From contig NZ_CANMAA010000013.1 in NCBI RefSeq assembly GCF_947495735.1, positions 1 through 64,000 on the forward strand: a stretch of 64,000 bases of DNA, read 5' to 3'. Made by a program: the position numbers and the translations under genes. Of this stretch, positions 149-4,573 are shown piece after piece (the first letter of the stretch is position 1; every line of letters starts with the position of its first letter). The stretch is from an uncultured Pseudokineococcus sp. Its GTDB lineage: Bacteria > Actinomycetota > Actinomycetes > Actinomycetales > Quadrisphaeraceae. A model generated the notes under the pieces. It did no database searches. It was not told the origin of the DNA and saw only the letters and a list, made by a program, of their open reading frames with translations.

Positions 149-409
149 TCATCCGGTCACGTCACGGCGAGCATCACGGGTCCGCTGTCGCCGGCTCGTG
201 CAGCAGTCCCGAGCCGCACCGCTGAGGCCGTCGTCTGCGGGCATGAGCCACCGCATGAGCACGAAGGTGGCGATCGCGACGAGGAGGCAGATCGCGCCAG
301 AGGTGTGCTTCTTCCGCGCAGCGACGCCCTGCCAGCGCGGGATACCACCGTCAGCGGCGTCGTCTACCGACGCCCGCGACAGCCCTAGCCATGCCATGGC
401 TCGCTCCAT
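149..409 (-). CDS. Small single-pass membrane protein (86 aa)
   Basis: I do not recognise a family. The ATG is preceded by a strong ribosome-binding site (CTGGAGG, five bases before the start), which is the main reason to accept the gene. About residues 37-56 form one clear membrane segment (GAICLLVAIATFVLMRWLM) after a basic RKKH stretch, so the N-terminal half is probably cytoplasmic. The C-terminal 30 residues are charged, contain a CC pair, and end DVTG with the stop lying in repeat copy 1. It runs alone on its strand, with the Abi gene ending 275 bases upstream. Codon use is slightly less G/C-biased than in core genes here. Confidence 0.5.
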   Translation of the reverse strand: MERAMAWLGLSRASVDDAADGGIPRWQGVAARKKHTSGAICLLVAIATFVLMRWLMPADDGLSGAARDCCTSRRQRTRDARRDVTG

Positions 410-683: not shown

Positions 684-1691
684 TCACGCCAGGTGTCGGC
701 GCCAGAACCCGTCGTCTGCCCAGTGCTCTGGGACTCCCATCCCGGCGAGATTCATCGGAGGGCGAGGGTGGAGCAGTGCATGCAGGCGCTGCGCCCAGCT
801 GCTGCGCGGGGACACCGAGTCGAGCACTGCCTGCAGCGAAACGAGCACCGGGTACAGCCGTCTGGTCGATCTTGAGGGGAGAGCGTCCTCGCCCTCTAGC
901 CAGGGGACTGCTCGCGAGTTGGGGATGGCTGGGTAGACGCCGAGCCCGACGTTCCACAAGCGCCCATGGTGGGCGCAGATGTTGCGCACGCGCACGTAGG
1001 TCGGCATCCATGACTCGAGCAGCCGCGCGGGCAAGCCGATGCTCCTGGCGATGGCGGTCCTGTCCGAGCTCCGCTTGATGTTCCGGTAGACGCTGCTCAG
1101 CTGCCCGATGGTCAGGGTCTCGACCATCAGCCACGAGGGCGGTAGATCGGGCAGCCCGTACGTCGTCAGGTAGTGCTCTAGCGCCGACGGGTGGGCCAGC
1201 GCCCGTCGTCCATCGTCCAGGGTTCGCGAAGGCTGCTCCGGCGACCGATCCAGCTGCTCCTCGCAGGTGCGTTGGACCATGCGCAAGAGCTTGGTGTGCT
1301 TGCCGATGTCGCCGAAGTTCGCGCTGTCCACGTACCAGTGAGGGTCGGCGTACGCCGTCGACATGTGGTCGGTCATCGCCGCACGCACGGCTACCTCGAC
1401 GCGCTCAAGCGCGTCCATGACCACAAGACGGAGTGCTCGATCGAAGACGTAGAGGTCGAGGACGTCGTCGAAAGCAGCGCCCTCGTGGAACAGGTGGTCG
1501 GGACCGCCCTGCTGAAAGGGGATCGCGTACGGCGAGAGCCGGTAGTAACCGATGTGCCGCAGGTACCGACGAGCCCTGTCCGGGTCGGGGATGCTCAAGC
1601 CTCGGTCGGCGAGGCGAGCCACGAGCTCGTCGAGGGTCAACGACGGCTTCTCGTATGTCAGCTCGCCGCGGGCCCGGGGCGATCGAGGCAC
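684..1691 (-). CDS. Abi_2 family (AbiD/AbiF-like) abortive infection protein
   Basis: A 335-residue protein that looks full length for the Abi_2 family, HEPN-related proteins in which one member is a toxin-like effector of phage-induced abortive infection. Family marks are KPSLTLDELVARLADRGL near the N-terminus, RYLRHIGYYRLSPYAIPF, FDRALRLVVMDALERVEV in the middle, and the HEPN-type R-x(4-6)-H motif in RVRNICAHHGRLWN. The ORF track starts at 1733 inside a hairpin; I prefer GTG at 1691 because GGGGAGG lies seven bases upstream and the extra 14 residues are unlike the family. The gene is followed by a dispersed repeat and preceded by a hairpin with a T tract, so the gene may be controlled by, or paired with, a small RNA. 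No methylase or other defence gene is adjacent. Confidence 0.85.
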   Translation of the reverse strand: MPRSPRARGELTYEKPSLTLDELVARLADRGLSIPDPDRARRYLRHIGYYRLSPYAIPFQQGGPDHLFHEGAAFDDVLDLYVFDRALRLVVMDALERVEVAVRAAMTDHMSTAYADPHWYVDSANFGDIGKHTKLLRMVQRTCEEQLDRSPEQPSRTLDDGRRALAHPSALEHYLTTYGLPDLPPSWLMVETLTIGQLSSVYRNIKRSSDRTAIARSIGLPARLLESWMPTYVRVRNICAHHGRLWNVGLGVYPAIPNSRAVPWLEGEDALPSRSTRRLYPVLVSLQAVLDSVSPRSSWAQRLHALLHPRPPMNLAGMGVPEHWADDGFWRRHLA

Positions 1692-1707
1692 TGACGCTCC
1701 TCCCCGG

Positions 1708-1775
1708 GCAAGAAAAATCCCCCAAGTGCGCATCGTCGAGAGGCGTGGGGGATGTGGTGGGCAGAACGTAGCACG
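1708..1775 (-). ncRNA. Candidate small RNA or attenuator upstream of abi
   Basis: On the minus strand, just upstream of the Abi start, ATCCCCCA and TGGGGGAT form a perfect 8-bp stem (1746-1753 with 1717-1724) around a 21-base loop, followed directly by TTTTTC. This is the only classic hairpin-plus-T-tract I saw in this GC-rich window. A TACGTT box (1765-1770) sits where a -10 element would put the RNA start just before the stem. Either a short terminated RNA of about 40-50 nt or an attenuator would fit. Conserved abiF RNAs upstream of Abi_2 genes are known in other bacteria; membership here is inference. Confidence 0.5.
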
Positions 1776-2363
1776 AGCACCTGCTGGGCGCCCCCGTGCG
1801 CTGATGACAACTCTGCCGTTACGTGGCGGTCACCCGGTCGGCCCTCAGCGACCGCTCTCCTCGGTGCCGCCGTCCCAGCAGCCGACCCCCTGCCGGCGAC
1901 GGGCCAGGTCACAGTTGCGGCGAGGCGCTACCTCGCGGCGACGTCGCCAGCAGCCCTGTCCGGATGCGATGTCCGCACACGTGCGTCATGCGGGACGGCC
2001 CCGACCGTGGTGAGGCCGTCCGGTCGTGCGTTCCCCGTCACCGGCCGCCTGGCCACTCCCCCGCCCTCCTGAGGGTCGCCTCGAGGCCCGTGGCCGGGCG
2101 AAGTGGTCCGGCTGAGGATCGCGACGAGATCGTGAGACGGCGGCGCTGGCGCGACGGTGGGACGTCGCAGGTCCGCCGTGCGCGCCTACGACGAGATCAG
2201 CCAGTCACTACAGGGGCGGGGCCGGGCCCGCCGCCGCAGCAGCTGCTGCTGCTGGAGGCGCTCTGGGTCCTGCCGGCCGGGCGGCCCTCGCCGCCGGAGA
2301 CCCGGCGGTGCTCGCCCGGGCCCACGCGGCGCCCGCCCCCGCCGTCGGGCGGGGCCCGTCCGC
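1754..2363. other. Gene-poor spacer with degenerate repeat cores
   Basis: No convincing gene in about 600 bases; the overlapping ORFs here are arginine- and proline-rich shadows. It contains one core of the dispersed repeat (CCGCCGTCCCAGCAGCCGACC, about 1866-1887) without the left half, and a partial inverted core (GCGGGACGGCC, around 1990). Confidence 0.5.
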
Positions 2364-3047
2364 TCAGCCCCGTGCAGCGCCGCTCCCGGCCACCCCGCAC
2401 TCGTACGCGATGATCACCGCCTGGACGCGGTCTCGGGCGCCGAGCTTGGCGAACACGTTCCCCACGTGCGTCTTCACCGTGGTCTCGGAGACCACGAGCT
2501 CGGCGGCGATCTCGGAGTTGGACGCGCCCTCCGCGATGAGGCGCAGGACGTCGTGCTCGCGCGGCGTGAGCGCGGCGAGGCGGGGGTCCGGGCCCTCGTC
2601 GACCAGCGCCTCACCGGGAGCCGGCAGGTGAGGCGCGAAGAGGTCGAGCATGCGGCGCAGCACCCGCGGCGCCACGACCGCCGTGCCCGCGGCGACCGTG
2701 CGGATCGCGTCGACGAGCTCGTCGGGACGCGCGGACTTCAGCAGGAAGCCGCTCGCGCCGGCGCGCAGCGCGGCGAACGCGAGGTCGTCGACGTCGAACG
2801 TCGTCAGGACGAGCACCCGGGACCCGGGGTGGTCAGCGACCACGCGCCGGGTGGCCTCGATGCCGTCCATGCCGGGCATGCGGATGTCCATGAGGACGAC
2901 GTCGGGGGCGAGCGCGGCCACCTGGTCGAGCGCGACCCGGCCGTCGGCGGCCTCGCCGACCACCTCGAGGTCCGGCTCGGACTCCAGGACCAGCCGGAAG
3001 CCGACGCGCAGCAGCGCCTGGTCGTCCACGAGCAGCACCGTCGTCAC
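2364..3047 (-). CDS. NarL/FixJ-family response regulator
   Basis: A 227-residue regulator: receiver domain (about 1-118) with acidic pocket DD at 8-9, phospho-acceptor Asp54 in VVLMDIRMPGMDG and Lys104 in FLLKSA, then a LuxR-type helix-turn-helix (about 155-215; LTPREHDVLRLIAEGASNSEIA and VSETTVKTHVGNVFAKLG). It overlaps the histidine kinase stop by ATGA and is the last gene of the five-gene exporter operon, so it probably receives phosphate from that kinase and controls the transporter. LuxR-type regulators bind inverted repeats; the large palindrome upstream of the first operon gene is a natural candidate site. Confidence 0.95.
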   Translation of the reverse strand: MTTVLLVDDQALLRVGFRLVLESEPDLEVVGEAADGRVALDQVAALAPDVVLMDIRMPGMDGIEATRRVVADHPGSRVLVLTTFDVDDLAFAALRAGASGFLLKSARPDELVDAIRTVAAGTAVVAPRVLRRMLDLFAPHLPAPGEALVDEGPDPRLAALTPREHDVLRLIAEGASNSEIAAELVVSETTVKTHVGNVFAKLGARDRVQAVIIAYECGVAGSGAARG

Positions 3048-4573
3048 GCCCGTCCTCCGTCCTGGTCGTCATCGTCGCTCCACGGCAGGACCGCGTGCAC
3101 GTGCCAGCCCCCGCCCGGCCGGGGGCCGGCGTCGACGTGGCCGCCCAGCAGCGCCGCGCGCTCCCGCATCCCGACGACGCCGCGCCCCGTGCCCTCGCCG
3201 CCGCCGGGGCGCGTGCCGCCCGCGTCGACGACGTCGACCTCGACCGTCGTCGGGGTGCGCCGCACCGACACCTCGACGGAACGGGCGCCCGGCGCGTGCC
3301 GCAGGACGTTCGTCAGCGCCTCCCCCAGGATGCGCACCACCGCCAGGCGCACCGACGTGTCCTGCGGCAGCGCGGTGTCCAGGCCGGACGCGGTCACGGG
3401 GACGCCCGCGACCCTCAACCGCTCGACGAGGGTGGGCAGGTCCACCTCTGCCGGCTCCTGACGCCGCTCGGTGCCGTCGTCGGCGGCGGGTCCCAGCGCC
3501 CCGAGGACGCGCTGCATGTCGGCGAGCGCGGAGCGCCCGGTCCGCGCGGCCTGCCGCACGGCGTCCCGGGACCGGTCGGGAGCGCGCTCGAACGCGGCGT
3601 CGGCGCCGTCGGCCAGCGCCACCATGACGGACAGGTTGTGGGCGACGACGTCGTGCATCTCGCGGGCGATGTGCGCGCGCTCGGCGGCGCGCGCGAGCGC
3701 GGCGCTCTGGTCCCGCTCGCGGACCAGCGTCCGGTAGCGCTCGACCAGGTCCGCCCTGTGCAGGCGCCGCGACCGGGCCTCCGACCCGACGGCCATCCCC
3801 AGCAGCAGCAGTGCGAGCAGGAGCAGCACCGACGCGGTGCGGCCGGCCGCCGAGAACAGCGGCTCCTGCAGGTCGGGGCCCCACTCCGAGCGCGGCAGGG
3901 TCGCGGCGCCGAACCACCCGATGACCTCGAGGAGCCCGAGGTCCTGCCAGCGCCACAGCGCGGCCGTCAGGACCACCAGGACGCCGCCGAAGACCGCCCA
4001 CGCGGTCCTCGTGCCGCGGTCCGCCGCGACGCTGCAGAGGGCGCACGCCAGGCAGACCCCGAGGACGCCGAGCACGCCGCCGACCAGCAGCGACGCCAGG
4101 ACCGCGACGGTCAGCAGCACCGTGACCGTGATCGGTCGGGCTCGCCGCAGGAGCAGCAGCGCCGCACCGACCGCGGTCCCGACCAGCCAGGTCGCGGGGA
4201 CGAGGGCGACGACGTCGGAGTCCTCCGGGTACAGGCCGAGGGCGACGGCGCCCAGGGCTGCCTCCCCCGCGAACACCGAGCCGACGAGTCCGACCACCGC
4301 GATCGCGACGGCGACGGTCGCGTCCACGACCCCGCGGCGGGCGGTGACGAGCCGGGCGACCGGGCTGCCCCCGCGCACCTGCTCCTCGGTCAGCGGCTCG
4401 TCGGTCAGCGACTCGTCGGCGGGACGTCCCGACCGCACCGCGGTCGCGGGTCGGGTCAGCACCGGCTCACTGTCCCATCCCAGAAGGCCGGTGCCGCCGG
4501 GCTCCGGTGGCGGCGCCACGACCTCCGCTGACCGGGCCACCTCCCGGGAGCCGGCTCCCTCAGCGGAGGTCAT
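3044..4573 (-). CDS. Two-component sensor histidine kinase (HisKA_3 type)
   Basis: About 509 residues with a long, poorly conserved cytoplasmic N-terminus (1-80), several membrane segments between about 82 and 262, then a dimerisation domain with the phospho-acceptor His307 in EMHDVVAHNLSVMVALADG and a HATPase_c domain (N-box EALTNVLRHAPGA, G-box GRGVVGMRERAALLGG). This is the DesK/NarX-like class that pairs with LuxR-type regulators. I chose ATG at 4573 because it overlaps the upstream permease stop; the track start at 4600 would run 40 bases into that gene. Its ligand is not obvious, but co-transcription with an ABC exporter suggests sensing of a drug, peptide or membrane stress. Confidence 0.93.
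   Translation of the reverse strand: MTSAEGAGSREVARSAEVVAPPPEPGGTGLLGWDSEPVLTRPATAVRSGRPADESLTDEPLTEEQVRGGSPVARLVTARRGVVDATVAVAIAVVGLVGSVFAGEAALGAVALGLYPEDSDVVALVPATWLVGTAVGAALLLLRRARPITVTVLLTVAVLASLLVGGVLGVLGVCLACALCSVAADRGTRTAWAVFGGVLVVLTAALWRWQDLGLLEVIGWFGAATLPRSEWGPDLQEPLFSAAGRTASVLLLLALLLLGMAVGSEARSRRLHRADLVERYRTLVRERDQSAALARAAERAHIAREMHDVVAHNLSVMVALADGADAAFERAPDRSRDAVRQAARTGRSALADMQRVLGALGPAADDGTERRQEPAEVDLPTLVERLRVAGVPVTASGLDTALPQDTSVRLAVVRILGEALTNVLRHAPGARSVEVSVRRTPTTVEVDVVDAGGTRPGGGEGTGRGVVGMRERAALLGGHVDAGPRPGGGWHVHAVLPWSDDDDQDGGRA

Follow-up and report, generated by a model that had tools for sequence, protein, structure and literature searches.

The first two kilobases of a 64,000-nucleotide stretch of DNA from an uncultured Pseudokineococcus sp. 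(the whole stretch is referred to as the window) hold an Abi_2 gene with a small hairpin directly ahead of its ribosome-binding site, which raises the question of whether the two form an RNA-controlled toxin unit and whether such a unit would be a new kind. An earlier note, made from the letters of the window, had proposed an RNA antitoxin or attenuator of the abiF type and, in this high-GC host, a new branch of it. The reading favoured here, with a probability of about 0.86, makes the locus a type III-like toxin-antitoxin unit of the AbiF type, with RNA as the antitoxin.

The gene (684–1691, minus strand; 335 amino acids from a GTG start) matches Pfam Abi_2 over the complete profile (169.3 bits against a cut-off of 25.6; positions 1–184 of 184), the PADLOC AbiD model (E 2e-59) and, across nearly its full length (phmmer, residues 12–332, E 1.7e-49), PbAbiF (8vz6_A). 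An AlphaFold model of the protein (mean pLDDT 89) returned 8vz6_A as the top Foldseek match (E 9.2e-18; TM 0.79/0.89) and no other significant match in the PDB. The HEPN-type motif, which the earlier note had described as kept, is intact: R-N-I-C-A-H fits R(N/H/D)xxxH at the expected place, R237 and H242 align with R210 and H215 of PbAbiF, and R237, N238 and H242 are invariant among 33 homologues. Replacing R210 and H215 inactivates PbAbiF, as does replacing R202 and H207 in the C. difficile AbiF (PMC12373285). The window carries an intact AbiF-type (Abi_2) HEPN gene, for which RNase activity and a capacity for growth arrest are predicted by analogy with these relatives.

Read along the minus strand, the locus runs from an extended -10 element (TGCTACGTT, 1765–1773) through a CACCAC leader, the hairpin (1717–1753), a T5 tract (1713–1717) and the ribosome-binding site GGGGAGGAG (1697–1705, 5 nt ahead of the start) to the GTG at 1691 and an open frame that ends at 684. 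The first ATG of the frame, its mechanical start, is at 1733 in the hairpin region, and because it falls within the RNA, the GTG at 1691 is the likely start codon, 21 nt from the end of the T tract; a G-rich ribosome-binding site between the T tract and the start is also seen in homologues. The contig ends at position 1, 684 bp downstream of the gene, and no prophage genes were seen beside the unit in the sequence up to that end. An 86-amino-acid open reading frame downstream of abiF (149–409, minus strand) has one likely membrane helix and no Pfam match.

The hairpin reads AUCCCCCA-CGC-CUCUCGACGAU-GCG-CACU-UGGGGGAU, in which AUCCCCCA and UGGGGGAU form an outer stem of 8 bp whose 21-nt loop encloses an inner CGC/GCG stem closed by the loop CUCUCGACGAU. 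The earlier note had recognised the 8-bp stem and T5 directly before the Abi ribosome-binding site, an arrangement confirmed on the minus strand, and had called it the only canonical intrinsic terminator in the window; a custom terminator search across the full 64 kb, which asked for a stem of ≥7 bp and at least four T and allowed loops of up to 30, likewise returned this site and no other. The standard promoter and terminator scan, which accepts loops of 8 nt at most, passes over it. Shuffled windows contain 0.2–0.3 such sites each and single-sequence folding gives no significant excess stability (z −1.15); the stem and T tract alone are not beyond chance. The RNA is also recognised at the level of a family. 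The Rfam abiF model (RF03085), a search suggested by the earlier note, scores 42 bits at 1717–1752 in cmscan against a gathering score of 37 (E 2.6e-4 for the whole window against all Rfam families), and this is the sole RNA-family match in the 64 kb and the sole abiF match in the 4.2-Mb genome to which the window belongs.

Among 50 loci encoding relatives of the protein, 48 of them actinobacterial, RF03085 alone marks 32. A second model, R1, for which the window and 15 of the relatives' loci served as input, finds abiF RNA directly upstream of the gene in 42 loci, corresponding to 42 of the 46 actinobacterial homologues with upstream DNA; since some of these 42 went into R1, independent support is provided by RF03085 and by the loci not used for the model. 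The RNA is kept while the homologous proteins are 51 to 76% identical. The eight loci without an R1 match are two from the Pseudomonadota (Zoogloea), two that are partial (L044 and L052) and four that lack the RNA (L041, L043, L045 and L048). Two loci (L046 and L049) look frameshifted and several others truncated.

A column profile of the 39 distinct loci reveals a sharp conserved island flanked by columns that are near random, with the leader A-C-n-A, the stem, and CUCUC with its following G invariant and only the -10 element conserved further upstream. In an alignment of 46 sequences (36 distinct), which was fitted to the structure and thereby favours pairing, 97.5% of cells are paired, both partners vary in eight of the 11 pairs and 16 cells are double changes; none of 500 shuffles reached any of these measures and slid controls were 33–58% paired. 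The comparison of upstream regions proposed in the earlier note thus finds the stem conserved and compensatory changes present. The covariation derives largely from L047 and more distant genomes, and in the close set the stem is nearly fixed in sequence, suggesting that the stem letters themselves, and not only their pairing, are under constraint.

Conservation extends to the elements that would produce a short transcript. The promoter-like TACGTT box of the earlier note (1770–1765) proved to be part of an extended -10 element, TGnTAnnnT, held at the same distance in homologues: TAnnnT lies 11–12 nt before the RNA leader in all 39 distinct loci, with the extended form in 32, occupying one of two adjacent positions between unconserved flanks. 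The A at 1758 is invariant, seven nt after the -10 element, and the boundaries of conservation in the 39 loci are sharp, making this A the natural start site of a predicted antitoxin RNA of about 42–48 nt (1711–1758, minus strand; leader ACCAC, hairpin and U tail), in agreement with the 40–50 nt estimated previously. R1 matches the window at 1711–1759 (77 bits), and the T-rich tail after the hairpin is retained in the aligned homologues; the abiF hairpin itself doubles as a predicted intrinsic terminator.

The mechanism ascribed to this unit is carried over from characterized relatives. In the AbiF system of C. difficile, the order promoter, RNA, terminator and toxin yields an abundant short RNA through termination and a minor read-through transcript; the RNA neutralises AbiF by direct binding, both in cis and in trans, and changes to its stem abolish neutralisation while compensatory stem changes keep it (PMC12373285). 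PbAbiF, from a member of the Prevotellaceae, was solved in the form of a dimer with two RNAs (8VZ6; reviewed in PMC12737573). In the fold and catalytic pair of its protein, as in the family of its RNA and the order of its parts, the window unit agrees with these relatives, and their mechanism is much the most probable one for it. The single promoter at 1773–1765 would give an abiF RNA of about 45 nt that mostly ends at its own hairpin, with occasional read-through supplying the toxin mRNA. Folded into a stem with the conserved CUCUC-N-ACGAU loop, the RNA would bind the dimeric HEPN ribonuclease and keep it inactive, and if transcription were disturbed the short RNA would fall below the level of the toxin, leaving free AbiF to cut RNA and stop growth. 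For the window unit, RNA production, binding, neutralisation and toxicity are each predicted from the relatives, and the idea that the disturbance is, for example, a phage takeover is a guess. Counted against this explanation are the differing architecture of the C. difficile unit, the four homologues that lack the RNA, and the frameshifted or truncated loci.

It is improbable, though the best placed of the alternatives, that the hairpin is solely a cis-acting attenuator, either as a terminator or as the target of a phage protein, with no free RNA acting on AbiF. The hairpin is a terminator located directly before the ribosome-binding site, and there is a precedent in the lactococcal abiD1 leader, to which a phage protein reportedly binds, activating translation (as cited in PMC12373285). 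Termination alone would not require the loop to be conserved. CUCUC, GA and the leader ACnA nevertheless do not vary among the 39 loci, and the loop fits a family for which binding to the protein was shown in a relative (PMC12373285).

Of four genomes from the genus, two have the gene, one of them being that of Pseudokineococcus marinus, and Abi_2 occurs in 32 of 397 genomes of an even sample of the phylum. The window and P. marinus are homologous over 680–1800 at 77%, after which homology largely stops, placing the two units in different surroundings. Between Microbacterium luticocti and Metallococcus carri, members of different families, a segment of 4.4 kb that includes the abiF unit is 98% identical (L019 1–4391, L022 1–4391), pointing to a recent transfer or to an assembly mix-up. 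In Rhodococcus ruber, a 72% homologue lies next to a transposase on a megaplasmid. Based on this patchy presence, the differing surroundings, the shared 4.4 kb and the megaplasmid homologue, the distribution has the appearance of a mobile defence gene. An exact 46-nt pattern of the RNA had no match in viral contigs, and the homologues in phage records were all distant, at less than 60% identity and either from phages of Bacillota or unassigned. A unit that has decayed or been domesticated, its protein without RNase activity in this organism and its RNA a leftover, would fit the presence in only two of the four genus genomes and the frameshifts in some relatives; it is very unlikely given that the open reading frame and catalytic motif are intact and that the RNA, -10 element, tail and ribosome-binding site are all intact and match the consensus. 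A chance hairpin ahead of an unrelated Abi-like gene, for which a stem and T tract at about 0.2 per shuffled window and a z of only −1.15 might speak, is already refuted, since the Rfam match, the conservation upstream of homologues and the covariation put the hairpin beyond chance.

Repeats around the P. marinus gene had suggested an integron cassette, an explanation that was rejected as the repeats belong to a dispersed 29-bp palindromic family found in both orientations, and no integron integrase exceeded the cut-off in the genome (TIGR02249, best 75.8 bits against 265). This repeat (CGATCGTCAGCGGGACGCTGACCGGCCAG) lies between genes across the genus, with 4–25 matches a genome, often near contig ends (e.g., L003 at 4042, 4844 and 6203; L123, L124 and L126; L127 at 1291–1534), and in one genome forms an array of about eight head-to-tail copies. 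Weakly related copies occur in the window at 129–156 and 645–672.

Placed among known systems, the putative RNA-antitoxin unit of the window is a member of a recognised family. Its RNA has the sequence, loop core and two-stem structure of RF03085 and likewise lies upstream of an Abi_2 gene; it differs in that the stem of the actinobacterial RNAs is nearly always AUCCCCCA/UGGGGGAU, with a 3' side one nucleotide short of the Rfam consensus, and that a conserved CACYAC leader and a T tail lie outside the 37-position model. The protein shares with PbAbiF (8VZ6) nearly full-length homology, the fold and the catalytic R...H pair, while identity over the structural alignment is about 32% and the host is a high-GC actinobacterium. 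AbiF-RCd22 from the C. difficile prophage phi027 has the same order of promoter, abiF RNA, terminator and toxin gene and the same catalytic R/H, whereas it carries two abiF motifs and a separate terminator within a prophage lysis module and the window has a single motif that is its own terminator. Distant matches (L053–L056) also have the abiF motif followed by a T-rich tract, indicating that the merger of motif and terminator is probably common and not a local invention. ToxIN and its kin likewise place an RNA antitoxin upstream of the toxin with a terminator in between. ToxIN antitoxins are generally tandem repeats and ToxIN toxins are not known to be HEPN proteins; with the Rfam abiF model, a single motif and no tandem-repeat antitoxin RNA was found in the window and its genome. 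The window unit would work like a type III toxin-antitoxin system, but is not a member of ToxIN. From the earlier note, then, the abiF RNA ahead of Abi_2, as antitoxin and/or attenuator, is upheld by the Rfam match and by the conserved stem with its compensatory changes, while the new branch is the weaker part, the window RNA being recognised by RF03085 as it stands. These are actinobacterial members and not a new kind, because RF03085 already marks 32 of the 50 loci and the mechanism was demonstrated in relatives in 2025 (PMC12373285; PbAbiF 8VZ6). The details worth keeping are the hairpin that is itself the terminator, the unvarying 5' leader, the loop variant with GGAA and the argF-linked clade that lacks the RNA.

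The RNA varies among the actinobacterial loci in two respects: the bulge that precedes the 3' arm comes in two lengths, and the loop is of either the ACGAU or the GGAA/GAA class. The latter (L012, L023, L024, L027, L032 and L047; at about 2893–2973 of the loci, 1566–1614 in L024) ends in GAAGC or GGAAGC and not ACGAUGC, and scores below the Rfam gathering score. On the protein tree the members of the bulge class group together (100/98), and at least two changes, poorly resolved, are required to account for the GGAA class. The toxin columns best associated with GGAA (200, 203 and 207) are in or next to one helix; so tight a cluster arose in 0.25% of trials with six random rows, a post hoc figure that ignores relatedness, and the association is of a strength that is not unusual (8% of trials). 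The putative association of loop and toxin residues is a lead only. A speculative and rather doubtful extension would have a single 37-nt fold of the actinobacterial abiF RNA serve as antitoxin and terminator at once. Binding of the nascent hairpin by the toxin could then alter read-through (autoregulation), and the loops, of at least two recognition types (ACGAU and GGAA), would be matched to changes at helix residues 200, 203 and 207 as pairs that do not cross-react.

The four homologues without the RNA (L041, L043, L045 and L048; at about 1930–3950) belong to Tessaracoccus and Arachnia, where the Abi_2 gene follows, within about 25 bases, an argF-like ornithine carbamoyltransferase gene identified by eye from its sequence and not by a family search. 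They form one group (100/100) on a long branch with RNxxxH intact. Searches of these genomes with R1 and RF03085 found no abiF RNA among the limited number of candidates scored, a result compatible with a divergent RNA. Apparently, this is an RNA-less AbiF relative that is vertically inherited, and the retention of RNxxxH in four homologues with no detectable RNA suggests that the RNA is not always needed. The more distant Zoogloea homologues (L050 and L051; 32% identity) have a hairpin upstream of 3001 with CCCGCCA/TGGCGGG arms, a T-rich tail and a longer, different interior, which is perhaps another abiF-like type of RNA.

AbiF units are regarded as ancestors of Cas13. Those whose mechanism is compared here come from the Bacillota and Bacteroidota, and the present set spans about thirty actinobacterial genera. 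Its RNA is compact, hardly varies and has a predicted promoter. The natural variants in the set, namely the shorter bulge, the GGAA loop and the RNA-less, argF-linked toxin, may be used to map the letters of the RNA that are read by the toxin and to learn how such a toxin lives without its RNA.
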